Shown: positions 17,194-57,470 of the stretch, piece after piece
Numbering within the stretch: position 1 is the stretch's first letter
Layout: each line of letters opens with the position of its first letter
From: a virus
Reading direction: 5' to 3' (one strand)
IMG/VR virus record: IMGVR_UViG_3300006750_000004
Location: 31,726 to 95,725 of that record
Length of the DNA stretch: 64,000 nucleotides
Notes under the pieces: generated by a model
What the model was told of the DNA's origin: nothing
What the model saw: only the letters and a program-made list of their open reading frames with translations
Databases searched by the model: none
Made by a program: the position numbers and the translations under genes

Positions 17194-18291
17194 ATGTCAA
17201 AAGTTGCAATTACCGCCGATGTTCATTTTGGCGTCACAGACAAGTTAATGGATACCCTATGGGCATGCAGAGTAATGCGAGAATATTGTCAAGCAGCCAA
17301 TATTGACACCGTACTCGTTCTCGGAGATCTCTACCACGATCGTACGTCAATCGGAATTGACGTACTCTCACATGTTGCAAAATTCTTCGAAGATACAAAA
17401 GAGAAATACAACCAAACCTGGATTGCCTTCCCAGGTAACCACGACATGTTCTTAAGACATTCGTGGGGTGTCAATAGTCTGGACATCATGCGGCGGCACA
17501 TGACTGTTATTGATGATGTTAAATTATTAACACTGGATGACCGCCGATTCTGGGTTCTACCCTTCATTACTTATGAGAAATCATTTATGAAGGTGCTTTA
17601 TGAAATTGAAAAACAAGTGGAAGACGGGGATTGTCTTCTAACCCATATCGGGGTTAAAGGAGCATTGTATAATACATGTTTTCTACTCCAGGATTGGTCC
17701 GTCGTTAATTTCGAACGTACCCCATTCAAACGGATTTATACCGGGCACTTCCACAGCAAACAACAAATTGGAGAGAATTGTTGGTATCCAGGATCACCAA
17801 TTCCCTTTAAATTCGACGAGGGAGATGTTGCTCATGGATTTTATGTATATGATCTAGAGGCGGATTCCCATAAATTCATCAACATTTGGAAAGCTGGTGC
17901 TAAATTCTTCCCAGATGAGGTAGCACCACCTCAATTTCACACATTCTTAGATGAACTTCTGGAAGAAAAAACTGCGGCCGATGTGTCCAATAATATGATT
18001 CGCGTTGGTCTCCAGCGAGAATACACTATAGACGAGAAGCATAGTATACGTAAGTCGTTAATGGATAAGGGGGCCAGAGTCGTCCGCTGGTGGGATCTAA
18101 TCACGAAAAAGGAAGAGAAATCCCAAATTACTAAGGGTATCGATTCATCTCAACACAACAGTCTATTTAATGCATTCTTATCAGCAGACACCAAAGGAAC
18201 GAAAGAGTTGAATCATGAGATACTTCTCAAAAGGCACTCAGAAGTGATCAACGAGGGTGATCACGAGTATACTATAGAGGAATCAGAATAA
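17194..18291 (+). CDS. SbcD/gp47-like recombination nuclease subunit
   Basis: 365 aa calcineurin-type phosphoesterase. The metal-binding motifs are in order: ITADVHFG (residues 6-13), VLGDLYHDR, PGNHDMF, LLTHIGVKG and TGHFHSKQ. The C-terminal part is predicted to cap the SbcC partner. The family makes the Mre11-type nuclease of the gp46/gp47 complex. The partner ATPase is at 11468. Confidence 0.9.
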   Translation: MSKVAITADVHFGVTDKLMDTLWACRVMREYCQAANIDTVLVLGDLYHDRTSIGIDVLSHVAKFFEDTKEKYNQTWIAFPGNHDMFLRHSWGVNSLDIMRRHMTVIDDVKLLTLDDRRFWVLPFITYEKSFMKVLYEIEKQVEDGDCLLTHIGVKGALYNTCFLLQDWSVVNFERTPFKRIYTGHFHSKQQIGENCWYPGSPIPFKFDEGDVAHGFYVYDLEADSHKFINIWKAGAKFFPDEVAPPQFHTFLDELLEEKTAADVSNNMIRVGLQREYTIDEKHSIRKSLMDKGARVVRWWDLITKKEEKSQITKGIDSSQHNSLFNAFLSADTKGTKELNHEILLKRHSEVINEGDHEYTIEESE

Positions 18292-21465: not shown

Positions 21466-21891
21466 TCAATATGCGATTTCCTGGAATCCCTGCCATTGTT
21501 GCCAGCTAATAACATTCCAATTATCGCCATAATTGATTAGCCAAGATACACCATATGTGTCAGTTACCCAAATCACAAATAGATCGTTAGTGAAATTTGG
21601 ATCGCGTCCTGGAGTTATAACACGTCCAACTGGGAGGGTGGCGAAGTAACTGGGTACGACTGGAACGTCCTGATCCAACTCACCAAATCGACGACCATCA
21701 GGAAGTCCTTCTAGGATCCCATGTTTGTCGACAATATTGATCACGCCATTATTCTCTATTGCTTTGATACCCTCTTGATGGAAATAAGCAGCTATTTGTT
21801 CGGCTTCTTGTCGATTAGAACCATCATCGAATTGGTCGTTGTCTTCGAGACCGTCGTAGTCGGATGATTCGGTGATATATTTAAGTTTCAT
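21466..21891 (-). CDS. Leader-motif protein A, one DYDGLEDADEF-type module
   Basis: 141 aa: MKLKYITE-S followed by DYDGLEDNDQF (residues 11-21), then a domain without cysteines containing FVIWVTDTYGVSWLINYGD. The leader ends in I-T-E, matching the [I/L]-x-E cleavage consensus of T4-type prohead proteases. Start codon and upstream stop overlap as TAATG. Likely a late, capsid-targeted protein; inferred from the shared leader. Confidence 0.6.
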   Translation of the reverse strand: MKLKYITESSDYDGLEDNDQFDDGSNRQEAEQIAAYFHQEGIKAIENNGVINIVDKHGILEGLPDGRRFGELDQDVPVVPSYFATLPVGRVITPGRDPNFTNDLFVIWVTDTYGVSWLINYGDNWNVISWQQWQGFQEIAY

Positions 21892-22697
21892 TAGTACTCG
21901 GCTGCACTGAAGATGTCTAATATTGCTTGGATGTCTTCTTCTTTGAGTTCTGGGCCGTTCCAGTCGTACCCAGTTACTTCGTCACCCTGAATGGCCAGCC
22001 AGCCCACGTCAAGGCGGTCGTAGTAGAGAGTTAATCTACCTATGAATGGTTTGAAAGTTGGGTCAGGACTTCCTGCTTCTTGAGTAGCCAATAATTCAGC
22101 TTTTCTGGCTGGGTCTATATCCACGGGCTCGGGGTCTGCCGCATCACCGCCAGCTAGGGCATCGCCAGCTACGCGCGCGCGAATATTATCCACCATTGTG
22201 GTGCCGGGTTGTCCGGCTACTTGTATTTCAATAATCCAGGATCGTGATCCTTCTTCATTCTGGTCTTCTGGAACTGATGTTACATCTATTTGAACCCACC
22301 TGTCCATCATGTCGACAAGATGGAGACCCTCTTCACCGTGTGGGTCGTAGAATCTGTCGTTGTCTTCGAGACCGTCGTAGTCGGATGATTCGGTGAGCTT
22401 CGGACGCTTACGGAGATCCGAAGGGAACGCTGATTTTATACATTTTTTACATTGTCCAGATGACCCGAAACTCGGCAGTTCGCCACAAAATCCACAAAAC
22501 AGATAATCACATTCAGTACAAGAAGCAAGGGATCGTTCATAACCACTCACATCACAATAATCACAATTTTCCATTGTATCTTGATCATCGTCATCTGGTT
22601 CCTCGATGAATTCGTCGGCGTCTTCGAGGCCGTCATAATCAGATTCGTCCGGATCTTCCGAAATCATTCTGGCTATTTTTTTAGGGTCAATTTTCAT
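21891..22697 (-). CDS. Leader-motif protein B, two modules with zinc-binding segment
   Basis: 268 aa from ATG 22697; an upstream in-frame extension is ignored because MKIDPKKIARMISE recurs at two other gene starts. Module 1: ISE at residue 14, DYDGLEDADEF (20-30), then a Cys-rich zinc segment (CDYC, CTEC, CGFC, CKKC). Module 2: LTE-S at residue 103, DYDGLEDNDRF, then an alpha/beta domain (residues 118-268). This looks like two cargo domains joined by a protease site. Confidence 0.65.
   Translation of the reverse strand: MKIDPKKIARMISEDPDESDYDGLEDADEFIEEPDDDDQDTMENCDYCDVSGYERSLASCTECDYLFCGFCGELPSFGSSGQCKKCIKSAFPSDLRKRPKLTESSDYDGLEDNDRFYDPHGEEGLHLVDMMDRWVQIDVTSVPEDQNEEGSRSWIIEIQVAGQPGTTMVDNIRARVAGDALAGGDAADPEPVDIDPARKAELLATQEAGSPDPTFKPFIGRLTLYYDRLDVGWLAIQGDEVTGYDWNGPELKEEDIQAILDIFSAAEY
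22619..22697 (-). repeat. 79-bp leader repeat (copies at 22619, 25278 and, shortened, 25778)
   Basis: Bases 22619-22697 and 25278-25356 are identical over 79 bp. They encode MKIDPKKIARMISEDPDES and the start of the acidic motif. A third copy at 25778-25825 shares the first 48 bp of the coding sequence. Identity at third codon positions indicates recent DNA-level copying of the leader. Confidence 0.9.
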
Positions 22698-22734
22698 ATC
22701 CGTCTCGTCAGTAAGCTTCAATGTTCTTGGCGTA

Positions 22735-24228
22735 CTATCGCCCGTCATCTCGTCGTCGCCAATCGAGTCGCTCTGCCTCCTCACAATTCGGACATCGCTC
22801 GCAGAAGGGACCGTGGATACAAGAACAAGAGAGAGGTAAGGCCGTAGTGCACCATTGACAATTCCAAAAATCACTTTGTTCTTGTTTTTCTACACATACA
22901 TCGCACCACATTGTGTTGCAGGAGGCGCAATAAACACCGTGATTAATTATTGCAAGGGGGGAATCCCCCGTAGATTCATCTTCTACTGGTGTGCCACACG
23001 TCGTGCATGGTGCACTATACCCTTCCGCATCGCTAAACTCATCGGCATCTTCAAGCCCCGCATATTCGCCAGACTCTCTAATATTGCTCTCGCGGGCGAA
23101 GTCTTCATCAGCTATGCAGTCTTGGCAGATATCAAGCGGGGATATTCCCCGCCATCCTGCATGTGAAGTACAATCGTCACACATTGATTGATTGCATTTG
23201 TAGCAATGTGTGACACGATCCCCTTCTTGCCAGGCAGTTCCACACCAACAAAAAGAATTATCTTGAAATTCATCGGCATCTTCAAGCCCGGCATATTCAT
23301 TGGCATCTTCATTCACATTTTCAGGTCCAAGAGAACCATGTCCTTGGCAGTAGTCAGTCCGCTCCCCACAATCCGGACACGTCTCGCAGTATTCCGCATC
23401 GGGATCGCAAAATTCGTCGGCGTCCTCGAGTCCCTCGTATGATTCGTTTACGTTGCGTTTATTGGCGGAAGAGATCCATTGTTGACGATTTGAGCGTCTA
23501 AAGAATCCTAATGGCCCTTCCCGTCCGTTGAATTCTTCCACATCCTGGTCGTTGGCGACCAGAAGTGCGCCGAGGTTCTGAATGAATTCTTCACTGTCCA
23601 AGTACTCTTTACATGATCGACAATATTGATCGTCCTGCTCTAGATCGTTAGTTCCACACACGCCGCAAACATTTGGTTCGCCGAATTCGTCGGCGTCCTC
23701 GAGTCCGGCATAGTCGGATTCGGTAATATGCTTGAGTTTCATTGGAGACCGACGCGCCTCGGACAACTCGCCGTCGTTCCAGAGATCCATATCTGGCGGC
23801 ACAGTTTCCTTATAGTGAGCGAAAGCAATATCTTGGATGGCATCTCTTAGGATAGAGGGCTTTGATCCCAATTGGGGATTTTGGTTTTGGAACCATTGTT
23901 CATATTTGGGGTATTCGGCGAGAATAGCGTCTTTAATGCTATCTAGTTCTGAACACCAGCGACATTTGTCAAGGTCGTAGTCATTTCCGACAGCCCAAAT
24001 TGGTGGGCCTGTACGAACTGGCTTTTCGAATGCTTCCGATCTGACGAAGATTATTACACTGTCAATATCCCTACTTTCTTGTTCGTACATGGTGTGAGCA
24101 GTGAAGAGATATGGTCCTACTTTCACTGGGCCATAATTATCTTGTTGCCATTCAGCTACGTCGTCAGTGAATTCGTCGGCGTCTTCGAGGCCGTCGTAGT
24201 CGGATTCGGTGATGTGGCGAAGTTTCAT
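22735..24228 (-). CDS. Leader-motif polyprotein C, five modules with zinc domains
   Basis: 497 aa built from five repeats of [I/V]-x-E plus an (x)Y(D/A/E)GLEDADEF motif. Motifs are at residues about 10-20, 172-182, 264-273, 311-321 and 388-398. The first follows MKLRHITE. The second follows an internal MKLKHITE at Met163, as if two genes had fused. Domains after motifs 2-5 contain CxxC pairs (CGVCG...CRSC; CETCPDC; CWCG...CYKC...CDDC...CQDC; CTTCG...CASC...CDVC...CQWC...CERCPNC). Read as a capsid-targeted polyprotein that a prohead protease could cut into small zinc proteins. A TTAAATA box (minus) lies about 45 bp upstream. Confidence 0.7.
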   Translation of the reverse strand: MKLRHITESDYDGLEDADEFTDDVAEWQQDNYGPVKVGPYLFTAHTMYEQESRDIDSVIIFVRSEAFEKPVRTGPPIWAVGNDYDLDKCRWCSELDSIKDAILAEYPKYEQWFQNQNPQLGSKPSILRDAIQDIAFAHYKETVPPDMDLWNDGELSEARRSPMKLKHITESDYAGLEDADEFGEPNVCGVCGTNDLEQDDQYCRSCKEYLDSEEFIQNLGALLVANDQDVEEFNGREGPLGFFRRSNRQQWISSANKRNVNESYEGLEDADEFCDPDAEYCETCPDCGERTDYCQGHGSLGPENVNEDANEYAGLEDADEFQDNSFCWCGTAWQEGDRVTHCYKCNQSMCDDCTSHAGWRGISPLDICQDCIADEDFARESNIRESGEYAGLEDADEFSDAEGYSAPCTTCGTPVEDESTGDSPLAIINHGVYCASCNTMWCDVCVEKQEQSDFWNCQWCTTALPLSCSCIHGPFCERCPNCEEAERLDWRRRDDGR

Positions 24229-24272
24229 TGATGCTCCAGAATTTCATTGTATCTTCGCCCAGATGGTGCCGG

Positions 24273-24279
24273 TATTTAA
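24273..24279 (-). promoter_or_regulatory. TTAAATA late-promoter-like motif upstream of polyprotein C
   Basis: On the minus strand GTTAAATACC lies about 45 bp upstream of the polyprotein start. It is a candidate gp55-type late promoter. Only the core box is recognisable. Confidence 0.3.
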
Positions 24280-25000
24280 CGAGTGACGGTAGCCCAACTG
24301 CCGTCGACATAGTGGTGACGTTTACCACGAATGATTTCTGCTAATCTTGATCGGTTGGAGCATCGGTTCTTATGGTGTTCTTGTGGCTTCCTTCGGGGAG
24401 TCCGGGTCTCGACAAAGTCGGGTCACCTGCTTCCAACCACCTTACAGGACGTAAGGCTTAAAAGAAACACTGGGCCTATCTGATAATGATTATCGGCTGC
24501 CCGAGATTAAGATGACCGCAGGCTTGGTGAGAACATTGTTGGGGTTACCCAGTGTACCAGCAGACAGATTTGAGCGTCTAAAGAATCCTAATGGCCCTTG
24601 TGCAATTATTCAAGATAGTCCGAAGCTCAAGCGTAAAGTCTGTAAGCATTGGCAGTTGTAATATTTCATCAAGTAACTCGACGTCCTTGAGAATGCCGAA
24701 CCTGATAGAGCATTCGGACTCCCTGGCGGGAGTTGATGACGGCAAGGATATGGACCAGGGGTCGACCAGCACAATTCTCCCCAAATCGATTTTAGTGTTG
24801 GAGCTTTCCTGAAATCTGAGAGCGGCAAGTCCGCTAACCCGCTTAATTTGTCAGAGACTAAATGAAAGTTTTTGGCGGTTAGGACGGGGGGAAACGATGT
24901 CTATCTATAATACTTTCAAATGACTAAAATCCAGAAATTGGAAGCCCCTGACTTTCTAATAGCTCTAAAGCTCACACTATTAATATCAGACCACGCTGGG
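24280..25000 (+). ncRNA. Candidate large structured noncoding RNA
   Basis: The 834-bp gap 24229-25062 has no credible ORF but many strong helices. Examples: 24285-24292 with 24298-24305 (8 bp); 24385-24391 with 24396-24402 closing a TTCG tetraloop (7 bp); 24440-24445 with 24451-24456; 24467-24474 with 24548-24555 enclosing CTGATAA/TTATCGG at 24480-24496; 24691-24696 with 24710-24715; 24718-24723 with 24728-24733; 24821-24825 with 24831-24835. Several helices contain G-U pairs only on the plus strand, which favours plus-strand transcription, opposite to the flanking genes. The size is like GOLLD/ROOL-type phage RNAs. A group I-intron-like box (GTCAGAGACTAAATG, 24850-24864) is also present. Ends are approximate. 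Confidence 0.45.
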
Positions 25001-25062
25001 GCAATCGCTGACACGTTGTTTTTATTGGACAAAGCTGGGCAATGTGCAGTCTATCGAAGGGA

Positions 25063-25356
25063 CTAGCCATTATGATTCTGCTCGATCCTCGCCAAATCAT
25101 CCTTGAAGTACTGCTGGCAGGAATGGCAGACAATCAGTTGGCCAGATGGATCTTTTAGATTGAAATTGCTGATACAATCGCTGCAGAAGTATGCATTTCG
25201 GCATCCATCACAACGGAACAACATATGTATTCCGAGTCCGCATGCGTCACATGTTTCCTTATCAACGAACTTGTCATCGTCTTCGAGGCCGTCATAATCA
25301 GATTCGTCCGGATCTTCCGAAATCATTCTGGCTATTTTTTTAGGGTCAATTTTCAT
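25063..25356 (-). CDS. Leader-motif protein D, small zinc protein
   Basis: 97 aa: MKIDPKKIARMISE leader, motif DYDGLEDDDKF (residues 20-30), then one compact zinc domain (CDACG, CDGC, CSDC, CHSC). This single-module form shows what one unit of the polyprotein looks like on its own. It overlaps the next gene upstream by 11 bp. Confidence 0.65.
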   Translation of the reverse strand: MKIDPKKIARMISEDPDESDYDGLEDDDKFVDKETCDACGLGIHMLFRCDGCRNAYFCSDCISNFNLKDPSGQLIVCHSCQQYFKDDLARIEQNHNG

Positions 25357-25825
25357 GAATTATACGCCTATTTATCGGAGGTTCGCCGGGGAGCCAACCA
25401 TGATCGTCGGCATACCAAGCACGACCACCTGCCCCGTTTTTGGTCACAATGGCCCATTCATTTTCATTATCGATTTCTATTTCATAAGTATTATCGATCC
25501 CCCAATGTTCGTTTTTAGGATTATCTATTGTTGTTATATAACTATCTGGTTCTGACACCTCGTCTTCGTCATCTCCAGAAGGGAAATCAGCATCTATATA
25601 TAATACTCCAAGCTTACCATGGCCCGCTGATACATATCCAGCTTCAACATTATAATGATTGAGAAAGTCTGCAAAGTTACCATTTTCATCCCCAAACTCA
25701 TCGGCATCTTCAAGCCCCGCATATTCGTCATCTTGTTTGTTAGATATGTATTCATCGGAGCGATCACTAGGAATATTCGGATCTTCCGAAATCATTCTGG
25801 CTATTTTTTTAGGGTCAATTTTCAT
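25346..25825 (-). CDS. Leader-motif protein E
   Basis: 159 aa from the ATG at 25825 (MKIDPKKIARMISE). The motif EYAGLEDADEF lies near residues 37-47. No zinc cysteines follow; instead there is a domain with AGYVSAGHGKLGVLYIDADF and EIEIDNENEWAIVTKNG. The leader is identical at DNA level to those of proteins B and D. Function unknown; probably capsid cargo like its neighbours. Confidence 0.6.
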   Translation of the reverse strand: MKIDPKKIARMISEDPNIPSDRSDEYISNKQDDEYAGLEDADEFGDENGNFADFLNHYNVEAGYVSAGHGKLGVLYIDADFPSGDDEDEVSEPDSYITTIDNPKNEHWGIDNTYEIEIDNENEWAIVTKNGAGGRAWYADDHGWLPGEPPINRRIIHEN

Positions 25826-25914
25826 TTGCAAGCCTTATAATATAGAACTTTTTGATCACCAAGGGCCTGCTTCTCTAGACCATCTTTCCCAGGTACCCTC
25901 TTCTATTTCGTATT

Positions 25915-26418
25915 TCACACACGGTTTGTGCTGGCGGCAAGTTGTGCTGCGACGATTCGTGCTGCAATAATATTGGCAGCTACTGTGGGTTTGGTTCTGA
26001 GTGATGCTTGTGCTTGGGAGGTGAAATTAGCGACTATATTATCACCAATTTGTTGGAATTTATCGATTCCGGCTAGTCCATTATCAGCTCCGGCTGGAGA
26101 GCCATCCCGAAGTCGATTCCCGCCGATTCCATATGCTTGGCATGATTTAGCTAATTCATGTTCGATTAATTTTTCTAGTTTGATTGTCATTTCTTCTGGT
26201 GATTTGTTGATTATCCATTCGCGTAGTGGTCGGTCTTCGATACAATCGGTGCATACTTCTTCTGGTTCATGTTGCCGATGGGAGTATCGCCATCGTATTA
26301 TATCTGCTGCATTAGATCCTATTCCGCAATCGACACATCCATCCGAGAATTGGTCATCGTCCTCGAGACCATAGTAGTCGGATTCTTGGTCGTTTTCGAT
26401 TATGTGTCGTAGTTTCAT
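25915..26418 (-). CDS. Leader-motif protein F
   Basis: 167 aa: MKLRHIIE-N leader, motif DYYGLEDDDQF (residues 14-24), a CVDCG...CTDC zinc pair, then a helical, Ala-rich C-terminus (ANIIAARIVAAQLAAS). First gene of the minus-strand leader-motif cluster, divergent from the collagen-like gene. Confidence 0.6.
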   Translation of the reverse strand: MKLRHIIENDQESDYYGLEDDDQFSDGCVDCGIGSNAADIIRWRYSHRQHEPEEVCTDCIEDRPLREWIINKSPEEMTIKLEKLIEHELAKSCQAYGIGGNRLRDGSPAGADNGLAGIDKFQQIGDNIVANFTSQAQASLRTKPTVAANIIAARIVAAQLAASTNRV

Positions 26419-26458: not shown

Positions 26459-26502
26459 ATTTTGTGTGAGAAATGAGTATATTTTGTGTGAGAAATGAGT
26501 AT
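26459..26502 (+). repeat. 22-bp tandem duplication of the collagen-like gene start
   Basis: A perfect 22-bp unit (26459-26480 and 26481-26502) contains GTGTGAGAA plus ATGAGTAT, so the start region is present twice. The first ATG (26473) opens only a 12-codon frame; the second (26495) opens the collagen-like gene. The first may act as a leader ORF. Confidence 0.85.
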
Positions 26503-28246
26503 GGCAGATAGTTGTGAAACCAAACCATTCCTGCCACGAAAGGGATCTGAAGGGGATGAGGTTTGTGACAAGTACGGGAATCGTTGGAAGTATGATCTAG
26601 AGAGTAATGGTTGGATTTCTTCTGGCACGATTACTGATACTCCATTAGTCACAGAGAAGATAGATGGATTGATTACATCTGATGCTTTTTCCAATCTTCG
26701 GAAATTGCAGACGTACGTTGATCTGGATCCGGACCTCAACACCTTTAAGATGCTCCCTGGTAGGGATGCATATTGGTACTATTTCCGATCCAGCGATAAG
26801 CTCTTCCGGTTTAGGCAGGAAGGAGAAGATTGCCTCCGTGTCGAGGTGGATAAGGGGCGGTTTTTTCAAATTTTGATGAAGGAGGTGTGCCCCGGTACTA
26901 AGGGGCCAAAGGGAGAGAAGGGCGATAAAGGATTGCCGGGTAATGTTGGGACGGCGGAGGTTTGCTTTACTCCGTCAGCGATTAATGGCGATCAGATGGA
27001 TTTCGCCATTTTTACCCCGACTCCGTTGGTTGAGAATGGTCCGATATCCCTGCCCGGTGGTGTTGTGCCTAATGTCTCTGTTCGGTTGTTTGAAGCAACT
27101 ATCCCGATTGGTGCGACAGCTACGCAACAAGACCAGATGCAAGATCTGGCTATCTTCTTCAACAATCATGATCCACGAGACGAGATACTTCCCAAATTCC
27201 AGGCTACTAGGGATTTGTTGCGGAAACGCAGTATGGGAATTATTGCTCAGGATAGTTTGTGCCAGATTCCTTTGAGTCAGGTTGCTGTTTTACCGTCTGG
27301 CACTACGTTAGCTGCTGCACCAAGTGTTACGGTTGAGGTGAATCCGGCAAATCCGTCTCAAGTCACTATTAGTGGTACTATTCCGGTTGATAATGTCCGT
27401 ACTGCTAATTCGATTCAGTTTGATCCAGAAACGAATATTGCATGCGGTTCTATTATTTTGGAGCCAGGTAATCAATGGTCTGACTTGGAAGCTGATGATT
27501 GGTGTATCAAGTCTCGTCAGAAAGGGCCGAATGGTCTGAAGGGGGATGCTGGAGAGTGTCGTATCAAGATCGTTGAGTGTTTGATCGATGATACGAATAT
27601 TCGTGCTACGTGTCCTATTGTTAATGCGAGACTCGATTGTGATCGTGAGATAATTTATACCTTATGTTCTGATTTATTGACAGAAATCTGTGTCGATAAA
27701 GTTAGTTTGCTCCCTGAGTCGACGACACTGGCGAATACCAATGCTTTTAAGAGTGTTTTTGCTGCGGCAGAGATGACTCTTGAGGAATGTAAGAGAATCA
27801 ACCGCTACAAAGTGGGATTAGAGGCGGATGAGCTGCCTGAACTTGATTTGTTGCATTGGGACCCACAACCAGGTTGTTCTACAAGGAGGCATTATGACAG
27901 ACACAAGTTTAATTGGATTCCGGACACTGACCTTCCAGCATGTGATTCAACCGCTGCTTGGTTTGGGCCTGATACGGTTCGATCTGGGAAGTATCCGCAT
28001 GAGATTGTCATACCTCCAGAACCGCCAGTTGACGAGTGTTGTCAGGATGAATTCTTCTATTGTCCCAATGTTCAGGAAGCACCATGCACTGATGACCCGC
28101 CATCACCGCCATCACCGCCATCGCCACCGTCATCGCCGTTAGCGGCAGCAGCGGGTCGTGCGGAGGTAGGCGATATACCGCTTGGTGGGAGACCCTCTTC
28201 TCCTCAACTTCAAATGGGTACGCGTAAGTGGCAGGTAAGGACTTAG
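26495..28246 (+). CDS. Collagen-like virion protein (putative)
   Basis: 583 aa. Two short Gly-x-y segments: CPGTKGPKGEKGDKGLPG near residue 132 and QKGPNGLKGDAGEC near residue 345. Between them are beta-rich regions, and near the C-terminus a PPSPPSPPSPP linker. Cysteines are frequent. Phage collagen-like proteins are usually tail-fibre or surface components. The GalNAc-transferase-like gene lies 28 bp downstream, suggesting that this protein may be glycosylated (inference). Confidence 0.65.
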   Translation: MSMADSCETKPFLPRKGSEGDEVCDKYGNRWKYDLESNGWISSGTITDTPLVTEKIDGLITSDAFSNLRKLQTYVDLDPDLNTFKMLPGRDAYWYYFRSSDKLFRFRQEGEDCLRVEVDKGRFFQILMKEVCPGTKGPKGEKGDKGLPGNVGTAEVCFTPSAINGDQMDFAIFTPTPLVENGPISLPGGVVPNVSVRLFEATIPIGATATQQDQMQDLAIFFNNHDPRDEILPKFQATRDLLRKRSMGIIAQDSLCQIPLSQVAVLPSGTTLAAAPSVTVEVNPANPSQVTISGTIPVDNVRTANSIQFDPETNIACGSIILEPGNQWSDLEADDWCIKSRQKGPNGLKGDAGECRIKIVECLIDDTNIRATCPIVNARLDCDREIIYTLCSDLLTEICVDKVSLLPESTTLANTNAFKSVFAAAEMTLEECKRINRYKVGLEADELPELDLLHWDPQPGCSTRRHYDRHKFNWIPDTDLPACDSTAAWFGPDTVRSGKYPHEIVIPPEPPVDECCQDEFFYCPNVQEAPCTDDPPSPPSPPSPPSSPLAAAAGRAEVGDIPLGGRPSSPQLQMGTRKWQVRT

Positions 28247-28274
28247 CGTACGTAGTTGGAAACATGAGGATTCA

Positions 28275-29693
28275 ATGGCATCACTTATTGTCTATCTTGC
28301 GGATACCAAGTATATTGGTCGTACGTTGGCTGAAATAGCTGACAAAACACCACCGTACTTGCTTGAAGACTTAATCATCTGCAATGACACCGGACAAGAA
28401 TACGAAAATGATCGTGCTCTAGTGATCAATTCAGATAGGATTGGTCGATCTAAATGCTGGAACGAGGCTGCCAAACAAGCTACGTCTGACGAATTGGTGT
28501 TCCTACGTGATACTACCAAACTGAGTAAGGACTGGTTGCAACCACTTATTTCGAGGGTGAAAGGATCTAACTCCTTGGTGAGTCCTAGAATTCACACTTT
28601 AAATACTGATTTCTGGAGTACCGAGAATGAGTCGTGGCGGCGATTTGGGTGGAGATGGGATCTGTCTTTATATAGTCGCCAAATGCTTCGGAATTCTGAA
28701 TCTCCGGCGGTATCTTCTAATTGTATTGCTGTGACAGCTGATTGGTTTGAGCATCTTGGTGGGTTTGATGAGGGGATGGTTGCTGGGGTTGGTGAGGATA
28801 TTGAGCTGTCGATTCGGTCTTGGTTATTCGATGGGAAGGTCGAGGTTGAGGATGATAGTTTGATTGCGGTTCGGTCTGAGATAGACAATAGTCGGCATAC
28901 GATTAACAATTTGGCGAGGATTGTTGAGATTTGGATGCCAAAATATTCCAGCCGGTTTTATTCTGCCAGGGATGTGAAGCCGAGTGAATTGGATACAGGT
29001 AAGTTGTCTAATCTGATGATGCTTCAAGATAGACAAATCCACAAGATTTCATGGTTTCTTGAGCGTTGTCAGCCAGAGCTTGGTGATGTATATGACTTGA
29101 GGGGGACGGCGTCTGGCAAGTCTGTGGCGGTTATTGGTCCTGGTGCTTCGGTGGATTTGATTGATCCGTCATTGATTTATCGTCATGATTTAATTATCTC
29201 TGTAGATTATATGGGGATGGCGTTTGAGTCTGATTATGTGGTTACGGATTTGTCGCATGTGGCGGTTGAGTTGAGGTCGCGGTATCGGGACAGGCAGTTT
29301 GTGTTGCCATTGGCTTTGGCGGATCGGACTTCGGCGGAGTTTATTGCTGCTGGTGAGGTGGTGGTTGATTGCTATCAGTTTGAGTTGTCTGGTTTGCGTG
29401 GTAGAGTGATTTCTGATTCTCCTCCATTTTGCAATTTTGAGCAGTCGTTGCATTCGGCCGTGAATTTTGCTTTGTTTTTGAACCCTAGGACAATTTCATT
29501 ATTCGGGTGTGATAATAAAATTGTGGGGGATAGGAGTCATTCGGCGAAGATAGAATATTATGATGATGGTAGGTTGTGGCCGGATTCTGATGCTACTCGG
29601 CGGAAGTTTGCGTATTCCGAGTTTGGTATCGGCCAGCTTGGGAACCTTGCTTATTCTTTGGGTATTCCACTAATCCGGATGAATCATACATAA
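28275..29693 (+). CDS. GalNAc-transferase-like GT2 fused to DUF115-like domain
   Basis: 472 aa. The N-terminal half is a family 2-type glycosyltransferase. FGWRWDLSLYSR, then LGGFDEGMVAGVGEDIELSIRSW resemble polypeptide GalNAc-transferases (the 'WGGEDxExS' region). From about residue 285 a second domain, KSVAVIGPGASVDLID, resembles the DUF115 Rossmann fold. It sits directly after the collagen-like gene and 2 bp before the next gene. Likely role: glycosylation of a virion protein or host glycan. Confidence 0.6.
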   Translation: MASLIVYLADTKYIGRTLAEIADKTPPYLLEDLIICNDTGQEYENDRALVINSDRIGRSKCWNEAAKQATSDELVFLRDTTKLSKDWLQPLISRVKGSNSLVSPRIHTLNTDFWSTENESWRRFGWRWDLSLYSRQMLRNSESPAVSSNCIAVTADWFEHLGGFDEGMVAGVGEDIELSIRSWLFDGKVEVEDDSLIAVRSEIDNSRHTINNLARIVEIWMPKYSSRFYSARDVKPSELDTGKLSNLMMLQDRQIHKISWFLERCQPELGDVYDLRGTASGKSVAVIGPGASVDLIDPSLIYRHDLIISVDYMGMAFESDYVVTDLSHVAVELRSRYRDRQFVLPLALADRTSAEFIAAGEVVVDCYQFELSGLRGRVISDSPPFCNFEQSLHSAVNFALFLNPRTISLFGCDNKIVGDRSHSAKIEYYDDGRLWPDSDATRRKFAYSEFGIGQLGNLAYSLGIPLIRMNHT

Positions 29694-35686: not shown

Positions 35687-36365
35687 GATTACCATCAAGT
35701 ATGCTAGTGGTGAAACTGTTGCTTTTCAGCTAGAGGGCGATATTTGGTACCTGCGTATTGGGCCTGGTATTCCGTGTCTTTTTGATGAGCGGCTTCGTAA
35801 GCAGGTGGTTCCAAATTTAGATAGCTGGTTTCAATCTAAGACTGGACAACGTTATTCATATCGTACTGTGTGTGATATGGCCGTAGCATTTGCCACTGGC
35901 CTGAATTGCTCTTATCGTGCGGAGGATGTTGTCCGTGTTTGTACCCAAGCGTCTCGTTCTACTGTTGCTCAGGTATTCAGAACAGAATTAGTAAATGATT
36001 ATCGTCGGGCTTACTGGATTGAAATTTTAGATCCCTTGCGACTACCGGAACAAGCACAATCTATTAGGGAGAAGTTCGACTTTCTGCGTAAGAAATTGGG
36101 GGACGATGTCTTTTATAATTACCTGTGTCGTTTATGGAGAGCATGTAGTCTTCAAAATCCGAATGAGACAGCTGTATTTGAACGACTCATTCAACGACTC
36201 GGGCGACAGGCAGCGGACCCGAAGTACCCAGACACAGAAGAATTGGACAAGAAACTTTGTGAGCGTGTGGTCGGTGGGATATTGAGAAGAGACCTACCAC
36301 AATACCGCAATATTCCAGATGATATAATGAGGAACGTTGATGGTATTCAAGCCGGAAGAATATAA
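35685..36365 (+). CDS. Hypothetical protein, 226 aa
   Basis: Start at 35685, where ATG overlaps the CAT start of the divergent glycosyltransferase. Mostly helical with many aromatic and Arg residues; no family recognised. The last 26 bp overlap the first polymerase gene, which suggests coupled expression with replication genes. Confidence 0.6.
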   Translation: MITIKYASGETVAFQLEGDIWYLRIGPGIPCLFDERLRKQVVPNLDSWFQSKTGQRYSYRTVCDMAVAFATGLNCSYRAEDVVRVCTQASRSTVAQVFRTELVNDYRRAYWIEILDPLRLPEQAQSIREKFDFLRKKLGDDVFYNYLCRLWRACSLQNPNETAVFERLIQRLGRQAADPKYPDTEELDKKLCERVVGGILRRDLPQYRNIPDDIMRNVDGIQAGRI

Positions 36366-37767
36366 AGGACCGAAGGAATTCGTCCACCTACATAATCATA
36401 CTGTATTTTCCGCTCTAGATGGAGTGGCTACACCGGAGCAGTATGCTGAGCAGTGTGTAGAACGCGGTTATCCGGCGATGAGTGCTACTGAGCATGGACA
36501 TATGGCATCAGTGCCCGATATGTATCTAGCATTCAAGAAAGCAGGGGTGAAGTATATTCCAGGGTGCGAGATATACTTCAACGATTTTGAACCTGCTAGA
36601 CAAGACTTAGTGGCTAAAGGTATCAAAATCCGGTCACAGGATTGGCGTAAACAAAATCCGGAGATGGCCGCAAGATTATTTCGTAATCGTCATCTCACTG
36701 TTCTTTGCAAGAATAAGACCGGATTCCACAACCTAGTTAAATTGACGACTCAAGCATATGAGACTGGCTTATATGGCATGGGTCGAATGCAATTCAACAG
36801 GGTCTGGTTTGATAAGCTTTGCGAATACAAAGAAGGGCTTATAATCTTATCTGGGTGTCTCAATGGTCCGGTGTGTCATGAACTCCGATACAAAGAATTA
36901 ACTGATCGTGAAGGCAATGTGATTAGTGAGAGACCAAACGCAGACCGAATACGCGACGCTGTGGATTGGGTGAAGAGATTCAAGGCGGAGTTTGGAGAAG
37001 ATTATTATATAGAACTTCAGATGCCAGGTATCCCTGAGGATGATAAAATCTTTAGACTCATGATATCGATTGCTGATCAATACAAAATACCGCTCGCACT
37101 GGCTAATGATTGTCACTATCTTCGTCGTAAAGACTTTATGCTACAGAAGATTATGATGGCTGTGGCTCAGGATACGACGGTGGATTCGCCAGATTTGTTT
37201 CATGTCAATAGTGACGAACAATTTATGAAAACTAGGGCTGAATTGTGGACGCAATTTAAGAATGGCGGTTACGACAAGGGATTGGATGATGGGGTGTTTG
37301 AGGCGATGTGTGATAATACTTTGATGATAGCTGATAAATGTGAGGCGTTTGCTGTCGACACTTCCCCAAAAATCCCGGAAATCCACAATGCTGATGATCA
37401 GTTGAGAAGGTTGGTGGCTGAGAGGTTACAGAGCAGTGGCTTGGTAAAGGAGGATAAGAAGTTCGTGATCGATGGTAAGGAGGTCACTTACGTTCAGCAG
37501 GCCAAGATTGAACTTAATCGATTTATTGACAAAGGGTTTTCCAGTTACTTTATTATCACTAAGGATTTGGTGGGATATGGTAAGTCACGGGGGTGGCCGT
37601 TTAGTCCTCGTGGTAGTGCTGGTGGTTCTTTGGTGTGTTTCCTTTTAGGTATTCATACTTTGGACCCAATGCTGTGGGAATTGTCGTTTGATCGTTTTCT
37701 GTCTCCGAGTCGTGGTGGGTATATGTTGAATGTGAAGATGCCGGAGCCGATTGACCGAAGCACGTGA
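36340..37767 (+). CDS. dnaE: DNA polymerase III alpha, piece 1 (PHP domain and start of palm)
   Basis: 475 aa from ATG 36340 (GAGG upstream). PHP motifs are complete: FVHLHNHT (HxH), ATEHGH, GCEIYF and NDCHYL, so the metal site may be active. The palm begins with FSPRGSAGGSLV, the equivalent of GPGRGSGAGSLV in E. coli DnaE. The protein ends shortly after FDRFLSPSRGG, just before the catalytic aspartates, which are in the next piece at 40025. Pieces 1 and 2 are separated by 2.3 kb, including one minus-strand gene. No intein sequence is visible at this break, so the two chains would have to assemble non-covalently. Confidence 0.85.
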   Translation: MVFKPEEYKGPKEFVHLHNHTVFSALDGVATPEQYAEQCVERGYPAMSATEHGHMASVPDMYLAFKKAGVKYIPGCEIYFNDFEPARQDLVAKGIKIRSQDWRKQNPEMAARLFRNRHLTVLCKNKTGFHNLVKLTTQAYETGLYGMGRMQFNRVWFDKLCEYKEGLIILSGCLNGPVCHELRYKELTDREGNVISERPNADRIRDAVDWVKRFKAEFGEDYYIELQMPGIPEDDKIFRLMISIADQYKIPLALANDCHYLRRKDFMLQKIMMAVAQDTTVDSPDLFHVNSDEQFMKTRAELWTQFKNGGYDKGLDDGVFEAMCDNTLMIADKCEAFAVDTSPKIPEIHNADDQLRRLVAERLQSSGLVKEDKKFVIDGKEVTYVQQAKIELNRFIDKGFSSYFIITKDLVGYGKSRGWPFSPRGSAGGSLVCFLLGIHTLDPMLWELSFDRFLSPSRGGYMLNVKMPEPIDRST

Positions 37768-37820
37768 AGCAACTTGCACTTGGCCAGATGGGCAAATCTG
37801 TCAAGTTATTTGGTTAACAA

Positions 37821-38282
37821 TTATTTTATACGCTGCTTGTCAAAGCTGACAGACCCTCCCTCTACCCTCGGAGTGAACTCCCACACCTTGGTGATTTTGT
37901 CTAGTGGCACAGGCCCCTTAGCCCAATACTCACCCTTATGGACTTGTGAATCATCCTTATAATCATCAACCAAATGGCGAGAAACCTCCGCAACGATGCC
38001 CGTGTAAGGCATTTCACGCGGAGACTCCGAACGCCATTCAAAATCGATATGTTCAGGCGTCTCGATAGGAAGTTCCGTGGCGTAATACACCGCATCGTCG
38101 TAGTCGCCGAAGCAGGAAATGTTCTCCTGGCTCTCATAAGGAGCAAACCGGCAATCAGACAGGATATATCCACGATTAATGGCTTCTGCCCACTCTACGT
38201 TGCTCATGCCGCGATACACGAATTTAACGGAAGCCGGTTCTTGCTTATCGCCCAGTGATTCGTAAATTTGTCTAAGTCTCAT
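37821..38282 (-). CDS. ART-like protein with capsid-targeting-type leader
   Basis: 153 aa beginning MRLRQIYE-S, the same leader type as the MKLRHITE family, ending in I-x-E. It is followed by a compact domain with FVYRGMSNVEWAEAI (R-G-x-S), ISCFGDYDDAVYYA and a C-terminal KGEYW, reminiscent of the R-S-E order of ADP-ribosyltransferases. It sits on the minus strand inside the polymerase locus. Likely cargo injected with the DNA (inference). Confidence 0.5.
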   Translation of the reverse strand: MRLRQIYESLGDKQEPASVKFVYRGMSNVEWAEAINRGYILSDCRFAPYESQENISCFGDYDDAVYYATELPIETPEHIDFEWRSESPREMPYTGIVAEVSRHLVDDYKDDSQVHKGEYWAKGPVPLDKITKVWEFTPRVEGGSVSFDKQRIK

Positions 38283-38300
38283 AATTTATTTTTGAGTAAT

Positions 38301-38334
38301 AAGCCAAAACCCCTGCGAACAGAGGTTCTGGCTT
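38301..38334. other. Hairpin in the divergent region 38283-38551
   Basis: AAGCCA/TGGCTT with inner AACC/GGTT forms a stem between the ART-like gene and the 174-aa gene. It has no good T-run and lies upstream of both genes, so it may be regulatory. The rest of the 269-bp gap holds an AAATAAATAGCG stretch (38401-38412) and nothing else recognisable. Confidence 0.3.
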
Positions 38335-38551
38335 TATAGCTTAACCTCTATTGATAAAATCAATAAGAAAATTAGGCCACCAACCTTGTCACACCCCAGC
38401 AAAATAAATAGCGGGGGCGATCGACCCTAAAAATAGGTAATGAGCGATGATGGCGAGAAGGCGGGTATTATCTGGAATGAGAGAGTAGATACTTCATGCA
38501 CTGCCGTTACTGGATTTGATGAAACAGTACCGTCCAAATGGTTGAAATATA

Positions 38552-39076
38552 ATGACTGATGAAATAACATCTGTTGAGGAATCACAAGTTGTTGGTGGTG
38601 TTCCACATAAGCCGATTGCTTATAAGGATTCACCCACTGCTCGAGATGAATTACGTCATTCTGTCCACCTCCATCTGATGATTATGAATGGTCCGACGCA
38701 GCAATTGGTTGTGTTTCTGACCAAGACGCTTGATCTCATTCCAGATCCTGGTGAAGAAACTTATGATTTTGCCTCTAACGATGTGGAGATGGGGATATTG
38801 GCTTATAGCATTATTGAGGCTTTGGCCCTTCATGTCCAACGATCTGTTGATGATCGTGCAGCCCGTGCTCAACAGCGTGGCGAGAAGTTCCCGGTGTCTG
38901 TCCGTCAAAAGGGTGATGAGATTTTGGTGGTTGTTGGGAAGACCCGTAGCTCTGGGGATCAAGTGACTTCTAAGAATGCCGTTCTTAAGGCTATTGCCGA
39001 TGCCTTGCATGCTCTTGCTACTGTCACCAAGGCCAAATATCCGGAGATACGGACTGCACGCGGTCAAGTGTTATGA
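38552..39076 (+). CDS. Hypothetical protein, 174 aa
   Basis: Helical protein (residues 30-110) with a C-terminal Ala-rich helix. No family recognised. It overlaps the RNase H-like gene by ATGA and lies between polymerase pieces 1 and 2, so a replication role is possible. Confidence 0.6.
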   Translation: MTDEITSVEESQVVGGVPHKPIAYKDSPTARDELRHSVHLHLMIMNGPTQQLVVFLTKTLDLIPDPGEETYDFASNDVEMGILAYSIIEALALHVQRSVDDRAARAQQRGEKFPVSVRQKGDEILVVVGKTRSSGDQVTSKNAVLKAIADALHALATVTKAKYPEIRTARGQVL

Positions 39077-39558
39077 GAGTCGATCTGGTCTGTGCTGGTG
39101 CTTGCCAAGATGATGGCCTGCCTACTCAGATTGCTGGTTGTGGTATTATTATCAGACTTATTGATGATCACGACCGTGTGCAATCCCGCGAGTTTGGGTG
39201 GGCACTTGGTGGGTCTACCGCTAACCTAGCTGATGTTCAAGCCGTGCGGCTTGCCTTGAGTAGTGTATTACCACAATTCCGTGGTTACCCAACTATTCTG
39301 TATGTGAATAGTAATTATGTGTTTAATCTTTTGGAAAAGGAGAATAAGCACACATTCAAGGCTACTTCGAAGAAAAACAAATCAGAGATCGAAGAGATGC
39401 GGCGATGGTTCGGCTATTATAAGTCTATCTCGATGGTCAAGTATAACCAACACGCTGATATGGATGTAGAGATATTGACCAGAACTATTCAGTTAGCTCA
39501 AGATGCCTTAGAGTCACAACAACATCACGATTCAGGGACCATTGGGCTTGATGCTTAA
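39073..39558 (+). CDS. RNase H-like fold protein, catalytic residues altered
   Basis: 161 aa. Fold features: VDLVCAGAC (first strand with Asp4), GCGIIIRL, EFGWALGGSTANLADVQAVRLAL, TILYVNSNYVFNLL and NQHADMDV. In active RNase HI the third strand reads DS; here it is NSN, so one metal-binding Asp is missing. It may be a reduced-activity or structural relative. ATGA overlap with the upstream gene. Confidence 0.6.
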   Translation: MRVDLVCAGACQDDGLPTQIAGCGIIIRLIDDHDRVQSREFGWALGGSTANLADVQAVRLALSSVLPQFRGYPTILYVNSNYVFNLLEKENKHTFKATSKKNKSEIEEMRRWFGYYKSISMVKYNQHADMDVEILTRTIQLAQDALESQQHHDSGTIGLDA

Positions 39559-39572
39559 TGTGTTAAGGCAAT

Positions 39573-40052
39573 ATGTCAATTAGGGACCAGCTACAAAAAA
39601 TCGCCGATACGGGGTCAAAACGCACCGAAGGTATCGATTACGCGAGTATTGCATTACTCTTAGTGAAACCGCCATCTCGTGTTCTTTCTTCACATCGCAT
39701 CAAAAACAAGGCAGAACATACTAAACTTTTGGAAATTGCTTTTAAAAAGCAATGTCTCATTTATTTCGCATCTGTTGCACATCGTGATGGGAAATACTAC
39801 GCTGCCCAGCCATGGATTCTTGATTTGGATTCTATTAATGCTCTGTGTGAGATAGATGATACACCTAAGGTTGAAATTAAGAAAGAAGAGAGAGGCAAGA
39901 AGGCAGAAGATATTGCTCCACTAACCCTTTATTGCCCATATTGCGACCACCCAATAAACAGTACACCAGGCCGCACTCTCCACATAAAGAGTAGACATCC
40001 TGATAAACTCGAGGATTACAAAAAATGGCTGAAGTCACATGGGAAGAAATAA
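39573..40052 (+). CDS. Hypothetical protein with C-terminal C2H2 zinc finger
   Basis: 159 aa. The C-terminal segment LYCPYCDHPINSTPGRTLH...RH matches a C2H2 finger (CxxC, H...H). The N-terminus is helical. The last 28 bp overlap polymerase piece 2, implying coupled expression; it may bind DNA or the polymerase. Confidence 0.65.
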   Translation: MSIRDQLQKIADTGSKRTEGIDYASIALLLVKPPSRVLSSHRIKNKAEHTKLLEIAFKKQCLIYFASVAHRDGKYYAAQPWILDLDSINALCEIDDTPKVEIKKEERGKKAEDIAPLTLYCPYCDHPINSTPGRTLHIKSRHPDKLEDYKKWLKSHGKK

Positions 40053-41998
40053 AGTCTCTCGCACGCGAGGAACTTGACCAGCGTGGCTTGAACGGAGTAT
40101 ATCTCGACCGCTTGGCATTCGAACAGCGGGAAGTCGAGAAACAGGGAGCCACAGCTTATTGGACCAATCTTGTCAATGACGGCAAGAAATTCGCGTCCAA
40201 CCCTAGCCATTTAATGCTTCCCTGGTTATTAGGAATGGTGGATGGCGACCCAATTCCCAACCGTGTAGACGATATGCTCTGCACAGTACGTGCCTCTGAA
40301 GTAGTCAAGTATAAAGATTCCAAAGGCCACGTGCCATCCGATTTCATCAAAGACCCAGATATGCCAGATATCGATCTGGACTGTCTGCCAGAAGCTCGTG
40401 ATCCGATCAAGGAGTATGCCGCCAAGAAATATGGTATGAACATCACTGACGGGTATGGCCCGGTGTGCTCGGTCGGTACATGGCAGACTTATAAGTTGAG
40501 ATCGGCAATTATCGACGTTTGTACTGCTACAGCCAAAGTCGATAAAGCGGAAGCGTATGATCTCACTACCAATCTACCGGATGATGTGGATGATCTTAAA
40601 GATGGCGGCTACTCTAATTGTAAAGGTAGACCCAAGAACCGCGACGGCGAAGAGATCGAATGCAATGTATCCCATAACAGAACCAAATGCCCGGATTGTG
40701 ATTCAGAGGCAACAGACGGGCCGACAATAGGGAAACTCCTCCAAGAACACGAATTGTTACGAAATTTCGCTATAAAGTATCCAGATGTCATAAACTATGC
40801 TGTCCAAATCATCGGCCGAGTCCGGAATATGGGTATGCATGCTGGTGCTCTGATTATTGCGGACCGTACCTTATTTGGAAATATTCCATTAGCTAAGGGT
40901 GGCAAGAAGGATTATTGGGTCAGTATGTGGTCCGAGGGTCGGAATACCCAATTGTCCAAATTTGGATATATCAAGTGGGATATCCTTGGTCTCAAGACCC
41001 TCAAGTACATCTTCGAATGTTGCCGTCTGATTGAACAGAATCGTGGTATTTCGTTTGGCAAGAAGATCGAACTAGAATCGGACCACGGCCAAGAACTCCC
41101 ACCGGCTATGGATGGATGGGATGATATTGATCCAAGTAAGAACAGGGCTGGCCATTATTATGACCCACAGGGTAATAAGCACTATATCGAATTGAATGAT
41201 AAACATGTTCTCAGCTTGGCCAATGACCAGAAGACCGATGGTGTCTTCCAGTTCGACACGGATTTGGCTAAAAGCACTTTGGCGAACGGCGTCCGGAATT
41301 TTGAGGACTTAATGCTGTTTAATGCTATGGGACACCCTGGTCCGATGGCATCGATTCCTGAGGCTGTTGAGAACCGTGACGACATGTATGGGTCGTGGAA
41401 GAAGAAATTACATCCAGATATTCTCAGGGTTCTTGAATCGACGTATGGTGTGATTGTATATCAGGAGCAATTACAGGCTATTTGGCAAATAGTCGCTGGA
41501 TTTACTGCTCCCCAGGCTCAGGAGGCACGGAAAGCTGTTGCTAAGAAGTGGGTCCACAAATTGAAGCCTATTCGTGAGCAGTGGATTGTTGGTGCTACGC
41601 GGGTTCTTGGTGCTCGCGAGGCGGAGATGTGGTGGCCCAAAATGGAGACGTTTGGTAGATATGCATTCAACCGATGCCTTAACAAAGATACACCGCTTGT
41701 TGATGCGATAACCGGAGAATCATTAACAGTCGAAGAATGGTATGAGTCAAACAGATCTCCATCATTACCGTCATATGTTGACGAGGTTGTTGTTGATAAA
41801 TGTGTCGACATTCATTACAGCGGTGAGCTTGAAGTGTTTGAAATTGAATTTGATAATGGGGATAAAGAAACAGTGACTATGGGCCACAAATTTTTGTGTG
41901 GCGATGGAGAATACCATGAAGTGCGTGAAATTATCGAGCAAGGACTGGAAATCGCCGAAGCTTCGGTTGGTCTCTGTGGATCAAAAACCCAGAGTTAG
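40025..41998 (+). CDS. dnaE: DNA polymerase III alpha, piece 2, with N-terminal split intein half
   Basis: 657 aa. Residues about 1-110 are a non-standard lead-in. MPDIDLD supplies the first two catalytic Asp residues and IKWDILGLKTLK the third. DGVFQFDTD, HPGPMAS, VIVYQEQL and MWWPKMETFGRYAFNR complete palm, thumb and finger motifs. A Cys-rich insertion (CKGR...CPDCDSE) lies near residue 220. After FNR, at base 41675, an intein begins with CLNKDTPLVD (block A) and contains VTMGHKFL (block B); 107 intein residues precede the stop. Splicing with the half encoded at 43433 would restore FNR-SHAVSYC, the usual FNKSHSAAY of DnaE. Confidence 0.9.
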   Translation: MAEVTWEEIKSLAREELDQRGLNGVYLDRLAFEQREVEKQGATAYWTNLVNDGKKFASNPSHLMLPWLLGMVDGDPIPNRVDDMLCTVRASEVVKYKDSKGHVPSDFIKDPDMPDIDLDCLPEARDPIKEYAAKKYGMNITDGYGPVCSVGTWQTYKLRSAIIDVCTATAKVDKAEAYDLTTNLPDDVDDLKDGGYSNCKGRPKNRDGEEIECNVSHNRTKCPDCDSEATDGPTIGKLLQEHELLRNFAIKYPDVINYAVQIIGRVRNMGMHAGALIIADRTLFGNIPLAKGGKKDYWVSMWSEGRNTQLSKFGYIKWDILGLKTLKYIFECCRLIEQNRGISFGKKIELESDHGQELPPAMDGWDDIDPSKNRAGHYYDPQGNKHYIELNDKHVLSLANDQKTDGVFQFDTDLAKSTLANGVRNFEDLMLFNAMGHPGPMASIPEAVENRDDMYGSWKKKLHPDILRVLESTYGVIVYQEQLQAIWQIVAGFTAPQAQEARKAVAKKWVHKLKPIREQWIVGATRVLGAREAEMWWPKMETFGRYAFNRCLNKDTPLVDAITGESLTVEEWYESNRSPSLPSYVDEVVVDKCVDIHYSGELEVFEIEFDNGDKETVTMGHKFLCGDGEYHEVREIIEQGLEIAEASVGLCGSKTQS

Positions 41999-43436: not shown

Positions 43437-44692
43437 AAATTAAATCTATTCGATCTCTTGGTGTTCAGAAGACTTTCTCTCCAGAAATGGAGAGTGCCCA
43501 ACATAATTATATAACTGGGAATTCTAATGCTGTTCATAAGAATTCGCACGCTGTTTCTTACTGTCTGGTGGCACATAGATGCCTGTGGCTGAAAGCTCAT
43601 TTCGCCCCAGAGTGGTGGGCGGCGGTTATGAGTGATTGTCATCCACTTAAATTGATTCGGTATATGGGTATTGCTAGAGCTGAGAAGTGGGAGGCAACGG
43701 ATATCACTTACCAGGGCACGTACCAACCGGAGGAGAGGGCCACTAGTGTCGTATTCGACACGATTAATGTGCATAATCTCACTACGGACTTTACGGCTAC
43801 TGGTGATAAGGTCAACCAGGGGATGATTGGTATCAAGGGGATCGGGGAGGCTGCGGCTGGGTTGTTTGTTGGTCGTGGTGAGTTCTTGGATATCGACGAT
43901 TTCATTGAGAAGAAAGGTGCTAAGAGCAAGGTGGTGATGGAGCGTTTTATCAAGCTTGGTGCTTTTGGTACTTTGGAAGGTCATGAGAACAGTTATGCCA
44001 CTTGGATGTGGTATCAGTATAAATATTGCAGTGGTAAGGATATCACTCAGTTGCGGAAACAGGTCCGGCAACGGTTGTTGGATGAGGACAAATGGGATGA
44101 AGATGCTGTGGAGGAAGAACGGCAGAGGCAGACGTCTGAATATAAAGCCCAATTCCCCAATCGCCGCAAGATTCCGAATAAGATCCAGAATTGGAAGCCG
44201 AAGCCTGATGATCGGCGTGAGCGAGTGATGGCTTTATATGCTGACAAGTTGTTCTCCCTGGAGGAGACTTTGGAGTTTGAGAAACAATATCTTGGATATT
44301 ATCTGCACTCTCCCTTGGATCTGTATGATATTCAGGGCGATTGTAATATTGAGGCGGCTAAGGAGGTTAGCAAGAATGGTGGTGATCCCAAGTTGGAGGT
44401 GGTGATTACTGATTTGCAATTTGCTGAGACAAAGACAAAGAAGGAGTATGCTAGGCTGATTGTGAGTGATGGGATGCAAAGTGCCTTGATTCTTCTTTTC
44501 AGCAATGAATTGGCGATGCAGGCTGCGAATAGCTTGGTGGTCGGTACTGGTGTTCAGGCATGTGTTGATTATGACGAGATGCGTGGTACTTTTACTATGA
44601 AGAGGAACCAGATCCTTGTCAAACTCCTCCCGAAAAATTGGCGTGAACGTCAAAGAGAAATTGACGGCCTTCCTCTACTTGATGATGCGTGA
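43433..44692 (+). CDS. dnaE: C-terminal split intein half plus DNA polymerase III alpha, piece 3
   Basis: 419 aa. The first 37 residues are the intein C-half (MKIKSIRSLG...QHNYITGN...VHKN); splicing should occur before Ser at base 43544. The penultimate residue is Lys rather than the usual His. The extein starts SHAVSYCLVAHRCLWLKAHF, matching the DnaE fingers. A helix-hairpin-helix (IGIKGIGEAAAG) and an OB-fold-like region (LEVVITDLQFAET...ARLIVSDG) follow. Read together with the 40025 product, these form a contiguous polymerase C-half. Confidence 0.88.
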   Translation: MKIKSIRSLGVQKTFSPEMESAQHNYITGNSNAVHKNSHAVSYCLVAHRCLWLKAHFAPEWWAAVMSDCHPLKLIRYMGIARAEKWEATDITYQGTYQPEERATSVVFDTINVHNLTTDFTATGDKVNQGMIGIKGIGEAAAGLFVGRGEFLDIDDFIEKKGAKSKVVMERFIKLGAFGTLEGHENSYATWMWYQYKYCSGKDITQLRKQVRQRLLDEDKWDEDAVEEERQRQTSEYKAQFPNRRKIPNKIQNWKPKPDDRRERVMALYADKLFSLEETLEFEKQYLGYYLHSPLDLYDIQGDCNIEAAKEVSKNGGDPKLEVVITDLQFAETKTKKEYARLIVSDGMQSALILLFSNELAMQAANSLVVGTGVQACVDYDEMRGTFTMKRNQILVKLLPKNWRERQREIDGLPLLDDA

Positions 44693-49667: not shown

Positions 49668-49780
49668 GTGTATTACCTAATATGGATGAATGTGCAAGTG
49701 TGGTTTATGTACCAACACGGAAGAAACAACATCAATGTCCAGAGTGTTTTCGATAAGAAATACTCTTAAGGAATTTAAAG

Positions 49781-50987: not shown

Positions 50988-51020
50988 GCTAATTTGGCCA
51001 TTTGACGGGGTTAGTGTCCA

Positions 51021-57432: not shown

Positions 57433-57470
57433 CACGGCCTTGTTTGCCTGTGTTGATAGGTGTCGAGGCT

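Follow-up and report, generated by a model that had tools for sequence, protein, structure and literature searches.

Candidate capsid-packaged internal proteins, possibly including polyproteins, in a large T4-like bacterial virus

Introduction

The internal head proteins of phage T4 (IPI, IPII, IPIII and Alt) combine a short N-terminal leader ending in an I-x-E site with variable cargo, ART-type enzymes included, and are cut by the gp21 protease. Their capsid-targeting sequence (CTS), about 10 residues long, suffices for targeting; the proteins are described as basic, and passage through the portal in the folded state is considered possible for the small IPI (PMC9026906). In SPN3US, a gp21-related protease cuts after AxE (x-x-E), with serine preferred at P1′, and giant phages of the SPN3US/phiKZ-like type have many inner head proteins, x-x-E cuts and several sites per propeptide (PMC10052503). 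The SPN3US cuts remove propeptides (PMC10052503, PMC5694885), and release of several mature units per chain is not described there.

Two further systems involve packaged or injected proteins. Polyvalent proteins carry many domains per injected chain, with ART domains common among them; their processing has been proposed, mainly via embedded metallopeptidases, and their describers draw an analogy to RNA-virus polyproteins (PMC5512222). The Dar proteins of phage P1 are packaged defence proteins, with N-terminal capsid targeting in DarB and a DarA that is believed to be processed; they are much larger single proteins, in which repeated joints are not described (PMC9024508).

Here we describe a gene family in a 64,000-nucleotide stretch (the window, positions 31726-95725 of a linear viral record of 95,725 bases, G000) whose members combine a T4-like leader with a Y-x-GLED-x-D-x-F motif (GLED). 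Unlike the single, basic units of T4, these are mostly acidic proteins, and several are chains with repeated joints marked by GLED. These joints would be sites of the prohead-protease type recurring in chains that, in the window, contain no peptidase, in contrast to the embedded metallopeptidases of polyvalent proteins.

Results

The GLED family of the window

The window contains 14 copies of GLED, all on the minus strand and spread over seven genes: 11 copies lie in a six-gene cluster at 21466-26418 and three in a gene at 51021-52013 (Table 1). No further copies were found elsewhere in the 95.7-kb record, in which the corresponding DNA pattern gave 14 matches against 0 in a reversed control. 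The initial annotation had described this arrangement from the sequence, and its inventory stands: the six adjacent genes, the one at 51021, the 14 copies and the leader starts all exist, as do single-, double-, triple- and five-module versions (four genes, one, one and one). Four genes begin with MKL-type leaders and three with MKIDPKKIARMISE. A CxxC-type module follows 9 of the 14 copies on reading the translations, where "many" had first been reported. Ten or more copies had been placed behind an [ILV]xE site; we count 13, with the site ending at most six residues before Y. The exception is the copy at 25723, and in this 159-aa protein GLED sits 20 residues past the leader site (the leader of the 161-aa ORF begins at 25825). 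The acidic residue assigned to the position before Y is present in 13 copies, but the copy with Y at 23439 has S.

Table 1. Genes of the window that carry GLED or a leader, with positions in the window
Feature	Position	Strand	Leader	Remarks
Single-unit gene, 167 aa	25915..26418	-	MKLRHIIE	GLED 26347-26376; CxxC pairs; orthologue in G001 at 57428-57856
Single-unit gene, 159 aa	25346..25825	-	MKIDPKKIARMISE	GLED 25694-25723; no cysteines
Single-unit gene, 97 aa	25063..25356	-	MKIDPKKIARMISE	GLED 25267-25296; eight cysteines; weak zf-MYND match
Five-unit gene, 497 aa	22735..24228	-	MKLRHITE	second complete leader-like MKLKHITES ahead of unit 2
GLED copies of the 497-aa protein	24169-24198, 23683-23712, 23410-23439, 23266-23295, 23035-23064	-
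Two-unit gene, 268 aa	21891..22697	-	MKIDPKKIARMISE, from 22697	GLED 22608-22637, 22350-22379
Single-unit gene, 141 aa	21466..21891	-	MKLKYITE	GLED 21829-21858; counterpart ends G001 polyprotein
Three-unit gene, 330 aa	51021..52013	-	MKLFQISE	GLED 51954-51983, 51717-51746, 51366-51395; orthologue in G001 at 27772-28806
Leader-only gene, 80 aa	50745..50987	-	KLRQINE	GTG start; no GLED
Leader-only gene, 153 aa	37821..38282	-	MRLRQIYE	no family match
Leader-only gene, 210 aa	6676..7308	-	MKLRSICE	C-terminus weakly resembles RNA 2'-phosphotransferase (KptA)

Searches of the window's GLED and leader proteins against Pfam, PHROGs and NCBIfam gave weak matches and nothing stronger; the zinc-family matches were zf-MYND at 7.5e-5 (97-aa protein) and C1 at 0.007 (330-aa protein). 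AlphaFold models were uninformative, with pLDDT of 31 for the 330-aa protein and 49.5 for the 210-aa leader-only protein.

Across 42 non-redundant copies the residues Y, G, L, E, D, D and F of GLED are invariant, but most of these are already set by the pattern used in the search, and the independent evidence comes from synonymous sites. Third codon positions show a pairwise identity of 0.505 against 0.454 predicted from codon usage, while first and second positions, most of them fixed by the pattern, are 99% identical. Synonymous sites thus appear nearly saturated, and these codon comparisons indicate that the peptide is conserved by selection and not by recent copying. The same figures leave scarcely any room for GLED being mainly a DNA-level recombination sequence for module shuffling, even with modules that clearly shuffle among genes and genomes. 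The D-x-D-G...D..E-F spacing of the commonest copies also resembles calcium-binding loops of the EF-hand or thrombospondin-3 type. This identity is very improbable: 10 of the 42 copies have A, S, V, W or Y at the would-be ligand position between Y and G, and the scanned GLED proteins match no calcium-binding Pfam family at E up to 1.

The mean net charge of GLED proteins is negative, at about 13 charges per 100 residues, compared with about zero in leader-only proteins, and the motif adds several per copy. The family was first read as a set of zinc proteins with a capsid-targeting leader; the leader does resemble a T4-type CTS, but the trait common to the GLED proteins is strong acidity, not zinc. 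One guess is that GLED is a handle by which unusually acidic cargo, unable to cling to DNA, is docked or retained.

Relatives and genomic context

The source is a large T4-like bacterial virus, with distant matches to known T4-like phages from the helicase of the window record and from a relative's capsid protein; the record itself is an incomplete contig without head genes. One contig (G003) shares 18 kb with the end of the record at 99.9% identity; G005 in turn overlaps G003 at 99.98%. Both belong to the same species and contribute six more leader genes, giving 16 in the species with the extension contig counted, together with a tail sheath gene predicted by reading the sequence. A 147-kb contig (G001) is largely collinear with the window record at about 70% DNA identity.

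The initial annotation had suggested a profile search for the motif across phage genomes. The back-translated pattern locates GLED in viral contigs, chiefly G001, G002 (146 kb), G003, G005, G011 and G012, with 14, 11 and 11 copies in G000, G001 and G002 and 0 in the reversed control; the few remaining matches in viral contigs are chance-like. The pattern has no match in eight related contigs, one of 408 kb included, and only chance-like matches in 84,980 prokaryote genomes; a tblastn search of 50,697 phage records returned no GLED relative. Scanning the viral contigs with a single protein, unlike the motif pattern, gave no match. Hits of the 497-aa protein to phages by tblastn had E values of 0.04 or worse and were set aside; they were to Gordonia/Nocardia proteins, which share a small zinc motif, and to a single protein of a Klebsiella phage. 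As far as these searches reach, GLED is limited to a sub-clade, and leader and zinc cargo have a wider range than GLED.

On one side of the main cluster stands a nuclease-like gene (17194-18291), on the other a gene at 26495-28246; counterparts of both border a different GLED set in G001. Its position fits that of a variable cargo locus, as judged from gene order. A search for the T4 late promoter TATAAATA was uninformative. Elsewhere in the window, 29826-31532 matches Volactin strongly (PF25216, E 6.8e-35), and a DNA polymerase III alpha-like sequence, perhaps interrupted by inserts, extends over several ORFs at 36337-44692, with PF07733 and PF17657 matched in 40025-41998. Record positions 1-31725 and the window start (L001, L002) hold many genes that read as sugar- or glycosyltransferase-like from their N-termini, and an ORF of 2,330 aa.

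The leader as a capsid-targeting sequence

The pattern MKLxxIxE occurs 41 times in 11 related records, some of which overlap one another, against 6 times in the control. Its cargo is diverse, including ART-PolyVal (2.1e-5, under the Pfam cut-off), GNAT (2.6e-5), phosphoribosyltransferase (5.1e-6), an HD_4/SpoT-like hydrolase and, in the window, the weak KptA-like stretch. The 80-aa leader-only protein has a counterpart beginning MKLRQITENLLTQQ... in the 408-kb relative (G017). The second leader type, MKIDPKKIARMISE in the window, reappears as MTIDPKQIAKMITEDPDE in a distant relative (G025, 138172-156696; L173 16477-16917), where CxxC pairs but no GLED come after it.

A short N-terminal [IL]-x-E leader is therefore common to otherwise unrelated proteins throughout the clade, as expected of a T4-style CTS, and these distributions make it likely that the leader acts as one. 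IPII and IPIII of T4 start with MKTYQEFIAE, which is an analogous sequence; this is a likeness and not demonstrated homology. Since the leader also occurs on non-zinc enzymes that lack GLED, the motif is best seen as a sub-clade addition. In two places a twin-arginine signal would be exposed at a new N-terminus by cutting: the Tat-type RRNFLK directly after leader IIE (L160 1501-2355; Pfam TAT_signal 9.9e-5) and RRRDFLK after internal LQE (G003 24723-26261).

Protease, head genes and shared site chemistry

A gp21-like protease elsewhere in the genome was among the checks first proposed. Peptidase_S77, the gp21-type prohead protease, is encoded in the GLED-bearing relatives G002, G011 and G012, next to gp22-like and gp23 genes, and also in four leader-bearing relatives without GLED. 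In the record that holds the window, searches turned up neither this protease nor a capsid gene; the record is counted as incomplete because the capsid-gene pieces of G001 lie past the point matching its left end; a search for contigs with the species' own head genes returned other species only. The gp23-like capsid gene of G001 is matched in only three short pieces (114256-114405, 128532-128633 and 129135-129224; L057, L058), separated by as much as 15 kb and by other genes. The gene may be split, misassembled or interrupted by introns or inteins; no intron reached the Rfam gathering score there.

Predicted sites of one chemistry, [ILV]xE with S, G, A, D, E or T as the next residue, are found in the capsid propeptide, the gp22-like core protein and both ends of the protease, and are conserved across relatives. 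This agreement bears on the possibility that the proteins are not packaged at all and act as intracellular anti-host or regulatory proteins, with two short linear motifs binding a common partner. Zinc modules and acidity fit intracellular inhibitors, and the main window cluster does not adjoin head genes. However, the build of the leader, the chemistry of the sites and the kinds of cargo all agree with internal proteins of the T4 type, and in G002, G001 and G012 capsid, terminase or protease genes have GLED or leader genes as neighbours, so that we regard an unpackaged role as improbable.

Internal joints

Among 25 internal GLED copies, 18 have an [ILV]xE ending one to four residues before Y, compared with a background of 6.3% in these proteins (binomial P 8e-17, indicative only, as the copies are related). 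Of the other seven, five have an E within four residues that lacks [ILV] at P3, and two have no E in that stretch. In the three-unit orthologues of G000 and G001 the joints are kept (PVSE-S/PIEE-S and NLTE-S/YIAE-S) while the adjoining linkers are gapped. One unit occurs both alone and in a chain: the 141-aa protein matches, at 38% over 112 aa (E 1e-25), the unit that closes the Zn_protease-bearing chain of G001 described below. Several units per chain and conserved putative protease sites at their boundaries, features of viral polyproteins, thus occur together.

These joints lead us to favour, with some reserve, cutting by the prohead protease. Cleavage after each I-x-E, as originally proposed, finds support in the enriched and conserved joints but not in the seven copies without a fitting site within four residues, and cutting at every joint is therefore not required. 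The short [ILV]xE also occurs elsewhere in these proteins, which counts against the joint reading, and the internal sites might be remnants of leaders fused into the chains, as MKLKHITES in the 497-aa protein suggests.

A distinct explanation accepts packaging through the leader but leaves the joints uncut, the products being multidomain injected proteins of the polyvalent type (PMC5512222) and GLED a repeated docking peptide after a fused leader remnant. Such multidomain proteins are already described, part of the internal copies lack a site and one retains a whole leader, Met included. Relics should decay, whereas these sites are strongly enriched and kept despite linker divergence, and any [ILV]xE exposed to the protease inside the prohead would be liable to be cut; uncut chains consequently seem unlikely, though they deserve more weight than the other alternatives. 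Neither an embedded peptidase nor a known polyvalent domain is among the Pfam matches of the GLED proteins in the window. An exception among relatives, nearer the polyvalent pattern, is a G001 chain (59226-60536) with a GTG start preceded by a good ribosome site, a leader-like KLCKIVNEE, a PF05618 Zn_protease domain (E 1e-33) and then three GLED units. A 1,312-aa low-complexity protein of G002 (48799-52737; L046 8799-12737) has three GLED units with poor joints near its N-terminus and no leader at the called start; it is possibly a core protein bearing GLED units.

Discussion

Our analyses lean towards a family of internal proteins that are packaged in the capsid and are in part polyproteins cut by a gp21-type prohead protease. 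The MKLxxIxE or M..DPKxIAxMI[ST]E leader would direct each product into the prohead, and the protease would remove it by cutting after [ILV]-x-E. Further sites of this kind, often followed by S and lying just ahead of GLED, would allow the same protease, within the prohead, to split the chains into units that are about 50-160 residues long and begin with a short acidic GLED peptide. Several units could thereby be loaded in equal numbers by one leader. The small cut units would exit with the DNA via portal and tail for early action against host functions, which we infer to be the rationale for the chains. The sequence itself shows the leader, the motif, the enrichment and conservation of sites, the protease and capsid genes of relatives and the shuffling of units; packaging, cleavage, ejection and an anti-host role are inferred from these.

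The fuller proposal, that the maturation protease cuts leader-targeted chains into small effectors whose shared acidic N-terminal GLED tag handles retention, ejection or host targeting, is more tentative, and we hold it at somewhat short of an even chance. Internal proteins with a CTS are a kind known from T4; the repeated-joint polyprotein form looks new when set against open-access PubMed Central papers, which is weak evidence of novelty.

If this reading is true, the protease that matures the capsid would also process injected polyproteins, and one targeting signal would load several proteins at a fixed ratio. The leader would then provide a simple sequence rule for the injected arsenal of a large clade of uncultivated phages, and which phage proteins enter the cell would become testable in uncultured phages.
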